A DNA stretch of 64,000 nt from Candidatus Hermodarchaeum yapensis. GTDB lineage: Archaea; Asgardarchaeota; Hermodarchaeia; Hermodarchaeales; Hermodarchaeaceae. Positions 841 to 62,589 of the stretch are shown here, in pieces. A program made the position numbers and the translations under genes. Where the stretch lies: positions 1 through 64,000 of the forward strand of contig JAEOSK010000012.1 in assembly GCA_016840405.1 (NCBI GenBank), in the 5' to 3' direction. The notes under the pieces are model-generated. The model worked only from the letters and a program-made list of their open reading frames with translations, did no database searches and had not been told where the DNA came from. The stretch's first letter is position 1. Every line of letters begins with the position of its first letter.

Positions 841-2046
841 GTGGACCAAAAAAACACAACTTTACTCATCACTGGCGCTTCTCATGGTTTGGTTCACTTG
901 TTAATGCTTGCGCTTCCTTTTATCACTGCTAAACTCTTACTAATCACACCAGTACCTCCTGGGACGGAAGGGCTCGTGGTAATATTGCTGAATACTCCTG
1001 CCTATTTCATATTCGGCTTTGGTGCTCTTCCAGCTGGAGTAATGAGCGACCGCATTGGTCCCCGTCTAACAATTGCACTCGGATTACTCCTTTCCATCGG
1101 TTCCGGAATTGCCCTCTTTTTCCTCTGGCCATTCGGAATTGGGATGATTGCCTTACTCTTCGTAGTTTATGCCTTTGGGGCAGGACTCTATCATCCTGCC
1201 GGAACAGCCTGGGTTTCAAATACTTTTGAAAAGGATCGGGGGAAAGCTTTGGGGCGTCATGGTATTGGGGGCAGTTTCGGACAACTGGCAGCTCCTCTCA
1301 TCTCAGCATTTATTCTGAGTACCGTGTTCTGGCCGGTTATCTTTCTCTTTTTAGCCGGTGTTGGATTTGTATTAGCCTTTGTGTTACTTCGAGTGCATAT
1401 TGAACCCCATACAGTTCAAGTTGAACCCGAAAAAGATACGAACTCGTCAAGAGGCTTTTTCAGCCGAATGACACCTGTCGTCATGATAATTGTTACACTG
1501 GTTTTCGCTGGAAGAGGAATGCTTTATCGGGGAGCAGTTACCGCTCTTCCAATTTATATCACCGATGAGATTGGAGCACTGCTCTTGCTAGCAGGATTCC
1601 TTGGTACTCTTGTCTATGTAGGAGGGATATTTGGTCAGGAATTGGGTGGACGGCTCACTGATAATTTTGGTTGGAAAAATACGCTCGTCTACATGTCCTT
1701 GTTAACTAGTATCTCCTTGTTACTCCTCTCAATCCCATACGCGCCAACACTGTTCAATGATGCTCTGCTCATCTTTGCCATCTTACTTTTTGGATTCTCC
1801 TTTTTCTCAGCTCAAGCAGCAAGTAACACCATGGTAGCTGACCTTTCAGATCCCCAAAGCCGAGGTCTAGTATTTGGTTGGAGCTTCTTTGCACGGTTTG
1901 GGCTTGGTGCATTCGGTATAGTCATAATTGGTCTAAGCCAGGTCTACCTTGGTAGTTGGATTTACGGTTTCTATGCCATGGCTCTGCTAGGGATACTCTC
2001 AGCCGTTTTAGTTCCCCTTGTTTATCAACGACAGACAAGGGAGTAA
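841..2046 (+). CDS. Major facilitator superfamily transporter
   Basis: About 12 hydrophobic segments, MFS-like GxxxDRxGxR loop (GVMSDRIGPR), GTG start. Confidence 0.8.
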   Translation: MDQKNTTLLITGASHGLVHLLMLALPFITAKLLLITPVPPGTEGLVVILLNTPAYFIFGFGALPAGVMSDRIGPRLTIALGLLLSIGSGIALFFLWPFGIGMIALLFVVYAFGAGLYHPAGTAWVSNTFEKDRGKALGRHGIGGSFGQLAAPLISAFILSTVFWPVIFLFLAGVGFVLAFVLLRVHIEPHTVQVEPEKDTNSSRGFFSRMTPVVMIIVTLVFAGRGMLYRGAVTALPIYITDEIGALLLLAGFLGTLVYVGGIFGQELGGRLTDNFGWKNTLVYMSLLTSISLLLLSIPYAPTLFNDALLIFAILLFGFSFFSAQAASNTMVADLSDPQSRGLVFGWSFFARFGLGAFGIVIIGLSQVYLGSWIYGFYAMALLGILSAVLVPLVYQRQTRE

Positions 2047-2111
2047 AGAAAGTTTACGGCATCCGAAGTTTTTTAGCCATCAATTCTTTTGGTAAACATA
2101 GGAGACAAACT

Positions 2112-2924
2112 ATGACTGAACACATCATGGGAAATGGCGTTCCAATTGTGGCAACCCAGTTAGTGCGAAATTTTGGTGAAACTGTTGCCGTGAACCAACT
2201 TTCATTCAAAGTTCACGCTGGGGAAATCTATGGGCTTCTTGGACCCAATGGTGCCGGCAAAACTACCACGGTGAGAATGGTCAGCGGGTTGCTTCCACCT
2301 ATTGAAGGTGAGGTCCAAGTGTTTGGATTTAATCCTATGACCCAGCCTATTGAGGTGAAAAAACGGATTGGACTTGTTCCTGAAGATCACATTCTTTACG
2401 AGTCATTGACTCCTCGAGAGTTTTTTAATTTCGTTGCCTCTGTACGCCGTTTAAATCAATCTGAAGTTGAAAATCGGATGCTCTCCCTCATTGATGCCTT
2501 CGAGTTCGCTGAATATTATGACAAACCTATTGCCACCTTGAGCCATGGTAACCGACAGAAGGCCAGTATCATGTCAGCACTGATTCATGATCCTCCATTA
2601 CTTGTCTTGGACGAACCTTTTAGTGGGCTAGATGCACGAACGGTCCGTGTCTTGAAAGATATTTTGAATATCCATTTAGAAAATGGCGGTGGCATACTAT
2701 TTAGTAGTCATATTCTCGAAGTGGCTGAAAGCCTCTGTGATCGTATTGGTATCATTGATGAGGGAAGAATGGTCGCTGAAGGAACGGTGAGCGAACTCCG
2801 AGAAATGGTGAAATCGCATGGTTCTTTGGAAGAGATCTTTCTTCGTGCTGTCCAACAAGACGAAGAAGTTGCTGAAACTGTAAAGGCGCTGCGTAAAGCA
2901 CTGGCGAAAAATACTAGTCTCTAA
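2112..2924 (+). CDS. ABC transporter ATP-binding protein (start trimmed to MTEHIMGNGV)
   Basis: Walker A GPNGAGKTT, signature-like LSHGNRQKA, Walker B LLVLDEPFSGLD, switch His SSH. Confidence 0.9.
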   Translation: MTEHIMGNGVPIVATQLVRNFGETVAVNQLSFKVHAGEIYGLLGPNGAGKTTTVRMVSGLLPPIEGEVQVFGFNPMTQPIEVKKRIGLVPEDHILYESLTPREFFNFVASVRRLNQSEVENRMLSLIDAFEFAEYYDKPIATLSHGNRQKASIMSALIHDPPLLVLDEPFSGLDARTVRVLKDILNIHLENGGGILFSSHILEVAESLCDRIGIIDEGRMVAEGTVSELREMVKSHGSLEEIFLRAVQQDEEVAETVKALRKALAKNTSL

Positions 2925-57868: not shown

Positions 57869-59725
57869 CTAGATCGAAGACATCATCTTGGCGAGTCCAA
57901 GATTTTGAATAGTTATCTTGGTTGGACGCCCATCAGTGTCACAGCCTCGTCGCTTGTAAAATTCAGTCAAGGACTCCTCGAAATCTTTGTGACTGATAAA
58001 CGCTGTGTAGCCTTTGGTGGGTCCATCTGGGATAGGCTCGTTCATGAACCGGTGTGGAAGAACATCATACCTTCGGGGTGCATCATCGTATTCACGGTTA
58101 TTGAACATCCGGGCTAGGAGCCAGATACGATTAGCTGCTTCGTTCACTGATTCTTTGGTTGCCTTAGCTCCTGTTACAGTTTCAAGTATTTCCGCACAGC
58201 CCTTAATCCCTAGCCGGGGTGAAATTGAGTGAGTGAAGTGACAAATTATCAGCGAATCTTTGAGCACTTTCAGATTTTGTTGCTCGAGAAGTGAATCTAA
58301 GACTGTAGTGGCACTAGCGTTGGGGGGTTCCGTAGTTGAAGGCCACCCACGAAGATGGCTTGGTCCAGCTGCAGCAGTTGCGTAACTAAGACCCAAACCG
58401 AGTTTACCTCGCGGATCCCAGGCAGGATACTCCAAACCCTTTGTATGGACGGCCACTTGATGGGCTTCACCATCCAATTCCGAAGCGAATTGTCGAGTAC
58501 CCTGGGCGAGTCGGTCACCGATACCTTCACGATTGGCTATCTTTGGAAGGAGCTCCAAGACACTGTTAGCATCACCAAATTCAATCTTAGCGCCTTTGAG
58601 CTCATCGGGCAACAGTCCCTTTTGTGAGAGCTCCATGAGGAATCCGATCACGTTCCCTATGCTGATGGTATCGAGCCCCAATGCGTTACACAAGTGGTTT
58701 GCATGAATTATTGCGTGTGTGTCAGCTATCCCTAAATTTCCACCCATTAAGCCCAAGGTTTCATACTCGGGAATAGCAATTTTGCCAGTTTGTCCAGCAG
58801 GAGCCCACTTGAAGTCAGGCTTTTTGAACGTCCAAGCACAACTGATCACACAACCCTCACAGGGCGTCCGTCGCTTATCATCATGATACTTTTTCTCAAT
58901 GCTTTCATCAGATATTTCCTTATGCCCCTCAAAATGGGTTGCTTGAAAATTCCGGGTCGGGAACATACCGATACTGTTTGCGTAATCTACAAGCCATGGT
59001 GTTCCGTGGTAGTGGAGGGAGTGCCCTCGTCTTTTTGCTTTTCTTGACCGTTGAACAAGTTTCTTGAGGAGGGATAATTCTTTCTCAGAATCCGGTGTGG
59101 GAATCCACACTTTTTCTGTTTGGATGGCAATGGCTTTCAACTGCTTTGCTCCAAAGACAGCACCTAATCCGCCGCGACCAAAATTCCGGAAATAATTATG
59201 TGTTAGACAAGCAAACCGAACTAAATGTTCTCCTGCTGGACCAGTGGAAAGAACTTGGGTATTGGGGTCTGCTTTTCGTAGCGCCAATTCGGTTTCATGT
59301 GTAGTTTTGCCCCAAAGATCTGTTGCATCGTTAACTGCGTGACCGTTGGGACTAATTTGAATCCAGGCCGGTTTTTCAGATTTCCCTTGAATGATGAGTA
59401 AATCATAGCCCGCTCTCTTCAATTGAGGACCAAGATTACCACCCATCTGACTATCGATGTACAGATTCGTTAGCGGGCTTTTTGAAACCGCAGCAATTCT
59501 TCCGGTAATGGGAATACGAGTGCCTTGGGCAGGACCTGCTGCCAAGTAAAACCGATTCATAGGGTCGAGAGGGTTAATCCGTGGTGGAACTTCTTGATAC
59601 AGATAGTAGGTTCCCAAGCCCTTGCCTCCAATGAATTGATGCAAGACTTCTTGGGGAATCGCCTCTTCACGAATTTGTTGAGTGGTCAAATCAACGCGAA
59701 GAAGTTTACCTTGCCATCCAAACAT
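57869..59725 (-). CDS. Aldehyde:ferredoxin oxidoreductase (tungsten-type)
   Basis: MFGWQGKLLRVDLTTQQ, FIGGKGLGTYYLY, GRGGLGAVFGAKQLKAIAI, CEGCVISC, LGLDTISIGNVIGFLMEL. Confidence 0.95.
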   Translation of the reverse strand: MFGWQGKLLRVDLTTQQIREEAIPQEVLHQFIGGKGLGTYYLYQEVPPRINPLDPMNRFYLAAGPAQGTRIPITGRIAAVSKSPLTNLYIDSQMGGNLGPQLKRAGYDLLIIQGKSEKPAWIQISPNGHAVNDATDLWGKTTHETELALRKADPNTQVLSTGPAGEHLVRFACLTHNYFRNFGRGGLGAVFGAKQLKAIAIQTEKVWIPTPDSEKELSLLKKLVQRSRKAKRRGHSLHYHGTPWLVDYANSIGMFPTRNFQATHFEGHKEISDESIEKKYHDDKRRTPCEGCVISCAWTFKKPDFKWAPAGQTGKIAIPEYETLGLMGGNLGIADTHAIIHANHLCNALGLDTISIGNVIGFLMELSQKGLLPDELKGAKIEFGDANSVLELLPKIANREGIGDRLAQGTRQFASELDGEAHQVAVHTKGLEYPAWDPRGKLGLGLSYATAAAGPSHLRGWPSTTEPPNASATTVLDSLLEQQNLKVLKDSLIICHFTHSISPRLGIKGCAEILETVTGAKATKESVNEAANRIWLLARMFNNREYDDAPRRYDVLPHRFMNEPIPDGPTKGYTAFISHKDFEESLTEFYKRRGCDTDGRPTKITIQNLGLAKMMSSI

Positions 59726-59916: not shown

Positions 59917-61821
59917 GTGGAACACAAATACTCCACCCAGATGCTTGCAATCATAGTACTCGTTACGCTTATTCCATTCTTCCTAACCTCTTCAGAGCAA
60001 GAGCTAATTCCAAACGTTCTAGCAACTTCCGTCGAGTGGGATCCAACAGGACCTTTCGCTGACCGGGCAGTATTCCATGTAATTTCAAGTCAGGACCAAC
60101 AAATCGCTGCTTTAATCGATGGAAGTCTTGATCATTTAGCCGATAGTGTCAAAGCCACTTATGTTGAAACCCTTGAAGCCAACCCGAATATCGAAGTAAC
60201 CCGTACGAAAGGACTCAAAGTTGGCATCATGGCTATTAATTGTGAACGTTATCCCTACTCAATTCCAGGATTTCGCCAAGCTCTTGCCTTAGCGGTGGAT
60301 AAACATGAAGCCTTATCGATAATGTGGGAGGGGCTAGGGTTTGTTCTCGACTCACTCATTCCCCCAGCAACCGGTGTGTGGCATAACAATCAAACCACAC
60401 CGAGTTACAAGGAATCACAAGTTGAAGTTGCACGAATTGTCCTCAACCAAGCCGGGTTCATCGATATCGACAGTGATGATTTCGTTGAGGCACCGGATGG
60501 GTCAGACTTTGTTTTTCGCCCTCTCTATCCCTCTGAAAGTTCAGGATGGGGTGCGGTAATGGCTGCCATGCAAGGTTATTGGACTGATGCCGGTATTCCA
60601 GTAGCCCCTCAAGCAGTCCCAGATATCACATTAAAAGCCCTCATAGAGACCTATCCACGTGATTATGATGCTGCAAATATCGAAATTGATTTCCTTCAAC
60701 ATAACCCACTACTCTTAGAGAACTTCGTTAGTGACCAGATTCCGAATTCTGGATGGAACTTCATGAACTGGTCTAACAGCACCTATGACAACTTGATTGA
60801 TCTCATGTTAACCTCATCTGATAAAGATACAGTCCTCGATGCAGCTCATGATGCACAGCAAATCCTCGTAGGCGATATGCCCATGCTTGTGTGGTATACC
60901 AATTTAGAAGTCAATGCCCACCGAACAGACACTTGGCAAAATTTTGTAGTTGTACCAGGTTACGGGACAGGACCTATGAATCGTTGGACTCCACGAACAG
61001 TCCGCTTAAGATTTGGAGACCCATACCGCCATCCAACAAGTGGAACCGGTGGAGTCTTCGACACACTCATTAGCGAACCAATGGATTCGCAAAATCCATT
61101 AACTGCGAAAAAAGCATCAAGTCGGTACATCTTAGATCAGATATACCTCACTCTTACAGGATTAGACGATCCATTGAACCTTTCAAGTACCCTTAATGGA
61201 GGCGGTCTTGCTTTCGAGTGGTCCAAAAGAGAACTCCCCGAAGGCTACCAATTCGACTTTATCTTATACGGAAATACAACCGATATTCCTCCGGCTTTAC
61301 AAACGTCTGAAATTGATGGATACTATCAATCTTCCCCTGCATATTGGCATGACATGGGTGGTGATTTTGGAGGAAAAGTTACCGCCCATGATGTTGAATT
61401 TAGTTACAATTTGATTGTCGATAATGCAATTCCAGAGTACATCAAACAAATTCCCTATTTGAATTCCTGTGAGGCGATTGATGATTACCATGTACGCATT
61501 ACGACGAACGGAAAGAGTTACTGGGCCTTTGATTATATCCGAAACTGGGTAATCCTCCCCAAGCACATCTGGCAGGGAATCCTCAGTCCACTCCTTTTCA
61601 CGAATTCGAAACCCATCGGCTGTGGCCCCTACCAATGGTATAGACGAATTGAGGGTGAATATGTCGAACTCGTATTCTGGGAGCATTACCATGATGGTGT
61701 TCCCGGACACACGTTCGGAGCAATTCCTCCTGTAAATTATCTACTCGCCTATCTTTCCGTGGGTATTCTAATAATCGCAATTATTATTCTCGGAAGTTAC
61801 TTGTACCTCCGATCAAGGTAA
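59917..61821 (+). CDS. Exported peptide-type (SBP_bac_5-like) substrate-binding protein with C-terminal TM anchor; halves apparently permuted
   Basis: Signal-like N-terminus; C-half-type motifs (PGFRQALALAVDKHEAL) precede N-half-type motifs (KVTAHDVEFSYNLI...WVILPKHIW...GCGPYQWYR); terminal TM. Confidence 0.8.
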   Translation: MEHKYSTQMLAIIVLVTLIPFFLTSSEQELIPNVLATSVEWDPTGPFADRAVFHVISSQDQQIAALIDGSLDHLADSVKATYVETLEANPNIEVTRTKGLKVGIMAINCERYPYSIPGFRQALALAVDKHEALSIMWEGLGFVLDSLIPPATGVWHNNQTTPSYKESQVEVARIVLNQAGFIDIDSDDFVEAPDGSDFVFRPLYPSESSGWGAVMAAMQGYWTDAGIPVAPQAVPDITLKALIETYPRDYDAANIEIDFLQHNPLLLENFVSDQIPNSGWNFMNWSNSTYDNLIDLMLTSSDKDTVLDAAHDAQQILVGDMPMLVWYTNLEVNAHRTDTWQNFVVVPGYGTGPMNRWTPRTVRLRFGDPYRHPTSGTGGVFDTLISEPMDSQNPLTAKKASSRYILDQIYLTLTGLDDPLNLSSTLNGGGLAFEWSKRELPEGYQFDFILYGNTTDIPPALQTSEIDGYYQSSPAYWHDMGGDFGGKVTAHDVEFSYNLIVDNAIPEYIKQIPYLNSCEAIDDYHVRITTNGKSYWAFDYIRNWVILPKHIWQGILSPLLFTNSKPIGCGPYQWYRRIEGEYVELVFWEHYHDGVPGHTFGAIPPVNYLLAYLSVGILIIAIIILGSYLYLRSR

Positions 61822-61995: not shown

Positions 61996-62589
61996 GTGAA
62001 AGTGTCAAGCAAGTTAGCACCCTCTGACATACATGAAAGAGTCACAGATCGCCCAACAGATTTTGGTATTAAAGTAGTCATGATGGGCGATGGCGCAGTG
62101 GGTAAAACGTCACTTGTACTCCGATACACCCAAAATACATTCTCACCCGAGTACAAACAGTCTTTAGGGGCAAGTTTTGCGGTCAGAGATTTAGAAATCC
62201 AAGACCAGAATGTCAAACTGGTTATTTGGGATGTCGCAGGTCAACCCTCATTTCGCCAAGTCCGCCGCCATTACTATAGCGGAGCTCATGGGGCCCTCCT
62301 ACTATTTGATGTCACAGAACCACGAACCTTTATGACCCTCCAAAACTGGTACAACGACTTTCGGAATGTAGTTCCTGACGGAGCAATAATTCTCATCGGT
62401 AATAAAGTAGATCTTGAGGAAAGTCGACAAGTCCCACCGGAAGCAGCTCAAATGCTGCAAAACTGGTGGAACATCCCTTACATCGAAACCTCCGCTGCAA
62501 ACGCCACTGGTGTCACTGATGCGTTCATCCTTGTTGCAGAAAATGCTCTAGAACGGGCAAAATCTCAAATGCGACCAAAAGAAGACTAA
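61996..62589 (+). CDS. Rab/Ras-like small GTPase; start may be downstream (VKVSSKL...)
   Basis: G1 GDGAVGKTS, G3 WDVAGQ, G4 NKVD, G5 ETSA. Confidence 0.93.
   Translation: MKVSSKLAPSDIHERVTDRPTDFGIKVVMMGDGAVGKTSLVLRYTQNTFSPEYKQSLGASFAVRDLEIQDQNVKLVIWDVAGQPSFRQVRRHYYSGAHGALLLFDVTEPRTFMTLQNWYNDFRNVVPDGAIILIGNKVDLEESRQVPPEAAQMLQNWWNIPYIETSAANATGVTDAFILVAENALERAKSQMRPKED

Follow-up and report, generated by a model that had tools for sequence, protein, structure and literature searches.

Circularly permuted SBP_bac_5 genes in an Asgard archaeon and its relatives encode putative OppA/DppA-like solute receptors

Most studies of circular permutation treat it as an engineering trick. Natural cases among transport receptors are rare in the open-licence literature searched, which holds one example from cluster B of the substrate-binding proteins (SBPs). 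This is Tp0684 (TpMglB-2) of Treponema pallidum, a 'Type Ic / Cluster Bc' SBP, the natural permutation of which was proven crystallographically; it binds ligand and closes, its permease is operon-linked, and tethering was raised by its authors as a cause of the permutation (PMC4990184). For the SBP_bac_5 receptors of cluster C (OppA/DppA), no report of permuted members was found among open-licence papers; a permuted receptor is already known for cluster B, and by that search permutation in cluster C is apparently new.

The window analysed here, a stretch of 64,000 nt, covers positions 1-64000 of the 66110-nt contig C33 in a 2.7-Mb draft genome of 77 contigs. An intact open reading frame at 59917-61821 on the plus strand, with a GTG start and its stop codon at 61819-61821, was identified as a type-1 permuted SBP_bac_5 gene by the ORF call, Pfam and a canonical-order HMM, and encodes a polypeptide of 634 amino acids. 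Its nearest named relatives were proteins of Candidatus Hermodarchaeota, an Asgard lineage (46-53% identity). An hmmscan of the window protein against Pfam-A returned SBP_bac_5 (PF00496) alone, in two stretches (total E 4.2e-40), with a score of 138.4 bits against a gathering cut-off of 32.4. The whole-genome Pfam search placed profile positions 141-328 first in the chain (60037-60648, E 1.4e-26) and positions 28-144 second (61342-61698, E 2.0e-12), the reverse of the canonical N-to-C order; this is the pair of inverted matches by which the initial annotation, a reading of the sequence alone, had suggested that its idea of a permuted SBP be checked. The canonical-order HMM, made from 40 unpermuted homologues and independent of the permuted profile A1, likewise aligned its positions 198-489 with residues 44-343 and only then 78-200 with residues 475-596. 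Between these main pieces a sub-significant match of HMM positions 9-53 fell on residues 378-422, resulting in a single cut in canonical register, 198-489 followed by 9-200. In the A1 alignment no substantial segment is missing from the window protein and the old C-terminus directly abuts the old N-terminus. Type 1 is defined by a single-piece, full-length match to A1 and a cut near canonical position 198; the window protein, itself one of the 24 permuted sequences from which A1 was built, matched it in one piece over positions 5-615 of 616 (E 4.2e-229), and its cut was put at 198/200 by the canonical HMM.

The chain begins with a hydrophobic, signal-peptide-like helix (residues 1-23, 59917-59985), which the initial annotation had described and which is seen in the AlphaFold model. 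The former C-terminal part follows (residues 44-359, 60046-60993; canonical 198-489 plus the old C-terminus), then the former N-terminal part (residues 360-599, 60994-61713), ending at a motif equivalent to the canonical NPxYWgGkP; both were delimited by Pfam, A1 and the canonical HMM. The joint between the old termini was placed at residues 344-377 (60946-61047) by A1, AlphaFold and the canonical HMM, and a transmembrane (TM) helix at residues 608-633 (61738-61815), located by A1 and AlphaFold, precedes the end of the chain; all these parts lie on the plus strand. Domain and synteny comparison identified two conserved neighbours that are separate from the receptor, an aldehyde ferredoxin oxidoreductase upstream (57869-59725, minus strand) and a Ras-like small GTPase downstream (61996-62589, plus strand).

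In native order, the window protein matched cluster-C receptors of the PDB either in two reversed stretches or over one half only. After in-silico rotation (residues 360-605 followed by 38-359) the best PDB matches became contiguous, residues 126-549 of the rotated sequence aligning with 81-502 of 7ebm, a Vibrio chitin-oligosaccharide receptor. AlphaFold, run on a 32-row alignment, gave one compact domain (pLDDT 85, pTM 0.77), with low confidence in the linker after the signal-like helix (residues 23-38), part of the joint (348-353), an insertion (463-471) and the linker to the TM helix (601-607). A Foldseek search with this model ranked cluster-C SBPs at the top of the matches listed; their coverage of only about 300-340 columns is expected because a sequential aligner meets a permuted chain, and the whole fold is not thereby proved. 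The model nevertheless suggests the bilobed fold of cluster C. Among the ligands of the nearest solved structures are chito- or manno-oligosaccharides in addition to peptides, and none of the PDB matches listed was a solved structure of a permuted SBP_bac_5 member. An AlphaFold model of a type-2 protein (11 rows) was of low confidence (pLDDT 57) and was left out of the evidence. As judged from its sequence, the window protein is a descendant of the SBP_bac_5 family in permuted form, and its working mode is probably that of an ordinary SBP_bac_5 receptor. The permutation proposed in the initial annotation was thus borne out by profile order, the rotation, the confident fold model and the many orthologues described below. 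Both outcomes that the annotation had named as fatal to its idea, a profile in normal order and a misassembly, were checked for, and neither applied.

Searches with A1 gave full-length, single-piece matches in seven of the eight genomes of the window's family (f1); in family f3 of the same phylum nearly every genome sampled held such a match, and families f21 and f22 had them as well (those of f22 judged by E-value alone). Full-length matches were also obtained in at least about 25 of 300 genomes of the archaeal phylum holding a Bathyarchaeota MAG, and matches in over 20 of the 300 genomes from the bacterial phylum holding a Halanaerobiaceae MAG; four to five candidates were scored per genome, so that genome counts are lower bounds and absences provisional. 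With that number of candidates per genome, no type-1 match was found in 247 genomes of the haloarchaeal phylum (E 1e-30), in 243 from the phylum to which a Thermoplasmata MAG belongs (E 1e-50) or in the phyla represented by a Streptomyces and by a Frischella genome (about 300 genomes apiece, E 1e-50). A second permuted form, type 2, is cut at canonical position ~342, after the LLxxAGY helix, as aligned in Asgard and Natrinema proteins. In a set of complete archaeal proteins biased through the manner of locus choice, the C-part of type 1 began at canonical 198 and the last piece stopped at 197 (medians, n=70), and that of type 2 began at 344 with the last piece stopping at 340 (medians, n=17); complete bacterial type-1 proteins (n=18) were cut at the same place as archaeal type 1. 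The permuted order is a real, exact, conserved and widespread rearrangement. Type-2 genes, often adjacent to opp genes, occurred in Asgard, Thermoproteota and haloarchaeal genomes (Natrinema L097/L107) and in one bacterial genome (L207); the loci are L040:13177-15090 (contig C64 of the window's own genome), L010, L021, L024/L073, L026, L027/L074, L097, L107, L158-L161, L178 and L207. Bacterial type-1 proteins formed one clade (SH-aLRT 99) within a Thermoproteota type-1 group (SH-aLRT 96), and this nesting of a bacterial clade inside an archaeal group points to a transfer of the type-1 receptor between archaea and bacteria.

No opp permease genes were found within the window, as the initial annotation had remarked; the sole ABC ATPase-type ORF, at 1956-2918 (+) near the opposite window end, is a stand-alone gene lacking the oligo_HPY tail of OppD/OppF. 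Permease and ATPase genes do accompany other members of the family. On contig C64 of the same genome a type-1 gene adjoins OppB, OppC, OppD and OppF; some 3 kb farther along lies a type-2 gene, divergent from a second OppBCDF set. Type-1 genes also lie next to opp genes in three other genomes (G001, G009 and G032) and at eight Thermoproteota loci (L167, L168, L169, L170, L171, L173, L180 and L181), and OppB adjoins the type-1 gene at 16 of 17 bacterial loci; the usual order, with domains checked, is SBP-OppB-OppC-OppD-OppF. Loci L197-L206 and L208-L214 are standard bacterial operons of this kind, with TM-free receptors. Since both permuted types often occur in OppBCDF operons, the permuted family most likely functions in the uptake of peptides or oligosaccharides by ABC importers. 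These receptors appear to have escaped annotation, and both their number and their link to opp genes are probably under-recorded because sequential domain searches return partial or double hits.

The window gene itself is an orphan; a tandem pair on C39 and a single copy on C49 of the same genome are orphans too. Escherichia coli MppA is an orphan cluster-C receptor that shares a permease, and such sharing is established for cluster C; by analogy, the window, C39 and C49 copies probably share a permease encoded elsewhere. On the evidence as a whole we consider it probable that the window protein is a naturally permuted cluster-C (OppA/DppA-like) solute receptor feeding an OppBCDF-type ABC importer, transport by this particular copy being an assumption because it is an orphan. 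Its chain is opened in a loop that follows the canonical NPxYW motif, a short linker connects the old termini, and the new C-terminus bears the TM anchor. The N-terminal signal would direct secretion and the secreted chain would be expected to fold into an ordinary bilobed receptor, which would bind a peptide or oligosaccharide in its cleft, close in clam-shell fashion and hand the ligand to the importer, most likely a shared one encoded elsewhere in the case of the window copy. As for substrate class, peptides seem favoured and oligosaccharides possible. Type-1 receptors fused to a subtilisin protease were found at L054:3873-11414, L183:1795-9531, L185:2181-9080 and L186:1-4944 (genomes G025, G192, G186 and G187), with the receptor N-terminal in proteins of 1650-2580 amino acids, some carrying Ig/PKD repeats; this fusion favours peptides as substrate, at least for that subgroup.

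Other permuted proteins carry different additions. That at L190:4899-7814 has C-terminal dockerin and FIMAH domains, and those at L049:4126-6138, L051:1414-3426 and L051:3647-5638 extend past the C-terminal TM into a zinc-ribbon-like segment that is predicted to be cytoplasmic (the Pfam match was tested for L049). The orphan copies, the window gene included, could accordingly be read as membrane-anchored sensors or surface scavengers that kept ligand binding and lost transport, a reading with which their lack of an adjacent permease is consistent, as is the zinc ribbon beyond the TM in some orphan relatives (L049, L051); the fusions to subtilase with Ig/PKD repeats, or to dockerin and FIMAH, suggest non-transport roles for some members. 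We regard it as unlikely for the orphans, however, given close paralogues within complete opp operons of the same genome and the precedent of MppA.

The OppC proteins encoded in type-1 operons are mostly 440-555 amino acids long, an insert of about 200 residues separating TM1 from the core, against about 330 amino acids for OppC of canonical operons in the same bacterial genomes. Inserts from bacterial and from Thermoproteota type-1 operons are homologous to each other, with pairwise E-values of ~1e-4 to 1e-25 between the two domains, and a profile of seven inserts picked up OppC of further type-1 operons; among the loci examined, none of the OppC proteins from canonical or type-2 operons matched it. 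OppC genes with the homologous insert were recorded at L167-L171, L180, L181, L197, L199-L206 and L209-L214. There are exceptions, short OppC proteins occurring in type-1 operons of G368 (309 aa) and G481 (337 aa) and other long ones accompanying canonical or type-2 receptors, and the Asgard inserts compared with the bacterial/Thermoproteota insert gave hhalign probabilities of 1 and 47%, values that do not tie them to this domain. No Pfam or PDB relative of the insert was found; from the order of TM helices it is plausibly placed extracellularly. We put forward tentatively, with confidence just short of even, that the OppA/DppA family has been permuted in at least two registers and that type 1 represents an archaeal and bacterial 'permuted Opp' importer subclass, paired with an OppC bearing a homologous insert of about 200 residues, plausibly on the receptor side. 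If so, receptor and permease docking would have been remodelled together.

When the tree was computed from rotated sequences, its three labels (canonical, type 1, type 2) proved strongly clustered (7 changes against 33 in shuffles). One clade for the 35 archaeal type-1 proteins was not rejected (AU p 0.21), the exceptions being the canonical L023, on a long branch inside it, and the type-1 L029 outside. In the first tree, type-1 L029/L066 (G015) grouped near the canonical L037 (G028), which makes it a candidate for an independent permutation event. Type 2 was scattered over several positions of the tree (4-5 changes) and possibly arose repeatedly. As to how the order was reversed, the initial annotation had suggested tandem duplication of an SBP gene followed by loss of the outer halves. 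This fits the clean joint and the tandem arrays that exist today, but the ORFs examined yielded no NCNC intermediate of such a duplication, and the duplication origin therefore stays a conjecture. At L038:8317-12160, L051:3-5638, L053:4382-17208 and L050:7678-11715, type-1 genes stood in tandem, in some cases with overlaps of tens of bases. Apparent leftover duplicated segments at the joint were discarded as a trace of duplication, over-extension of the Pfam match (for example 2-185 in L187) being spurious because the canonical HMM stops at 197-200 and the extension enters an Ig-like linker. The want of an NCNC intermediate would also suit a fusion of two half-genes from different SBP paralogues rather than descent from one duplicated gene, and arrays of several SBP genes do exist (L053, L051); half-gene intermediates were not seen either, and we think such a fusion improbable.

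The C-terminal TM described as a tether in the initial annotation is present in the window protein, and a strongly hydrophobic C-terminal stretch was found in 69 of 71 complete archaeal type-1 proteins (a hydrophobic N-terminal stretch in 70 of 71), but the tether is not inherent to the permutation: the 18 complete bacterial proteins of type 1 all lack a TM, their chains stopping no more than a few residues from NPxYW. Absence of the helix from bacterial type 1 means that tethering does not explain the permutation, and the nesting of these TM-free forms within archaeal type 1 makes permutation and anchor separable. The view that the permutation evolved for the sake of membrane anchoring, an anchor moved to a loop relieving strain at the old N-terminus as proposed for Tp0684, can draw on the archaeal TM counts, on several Asgard type-2 proteins that end in a TM and several haloarchaeal ones with a lipobox-like motif, and on the Tp0684 authors having raised tethering as a cause (PMC4990184). 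Its strict version, that the permutation exists to allow anchoring, is weakened by the TM-free bacterial members, and canonical Asgard receptors (L023, L037) have a C-terminal TM with no permutation; overall we hold it to be improbable.

Syntenic permuted orthologues were found in five related Hermodarchaeota genomes (G001, G002, G004, G005 and G006), the shared neighbours being RadA-like, aldehyde ferredoxin oxidoreductase, Ras-like GTPase, NfeD-like, M20 peptidase and Top6B genes, of which each locus displays only the portion that lies within its contig or stretch. An artefact, that is, two adjacent or overlapping canonical SBP genes merged through misassembly or frameshift, might be suspected in a 77-contig draft when tandem SBP genes do exist, but it is refuted by these orthologues with conserved neighbours and by permuted genes in the single-contig genomes G083 and G190, and is practically out of the question given also that 70 complete archaeal proteins and 18 from bacteria are cut at the identical place, and the one open frame that spans signal, joint and TM.

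Two registers of permutation thus occur in a major receptor family, and one genome carries canonical, type-1 and type-2 genes together. These coexisting orders make it possible to ask, in a natural setting, if folding, secretion, anchoring and permease docking depend on the order of the chain; in Asgard archaea the finding bears on peptide uptake. Among known systems, Tp0684 is alike in being a naturally permuted ABC receptor with an operon-linked permease, but it is an MglB-like sugar receptor of cluster B, from another fold family, with another cut point, and its type is found in spirochaetes and Gram-positives; the window protein showed no MglB homology that would place it in Cluster Bc, matching PF00496 only, and the PDB matches listed belonged to cluster C. 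Cluster-C SBPs of PF00496 (OppA, DppA, AppA, NikA, the Vibrio chitin-oligosaccharide-binding protein and Thermotoga TM1223) have their whole family sequence and motifs represented in the permuted protein, and resemble it further in predicted fold and in the opp gene adjacency of many permuted relatives; they differ in that the permuted receptors reverse the N- and C-parts with an exact cut after NPxYW, and in that archaeal members add a C-terminal TM. Canonical TM-anchored SBP_bac_5 proteins of the same phylum (L023, L037) share the N-terminal signal, the SBP_bac_5 domain and the C-terminal TM with the window protein, but keep their halves in canonical order. Type-2 proteins (such as L040 13177-15090, L097/L107 and L207) are permuted like type 1 and often lie beside opp genes, and differ from it in a cut about 145 positions further on.
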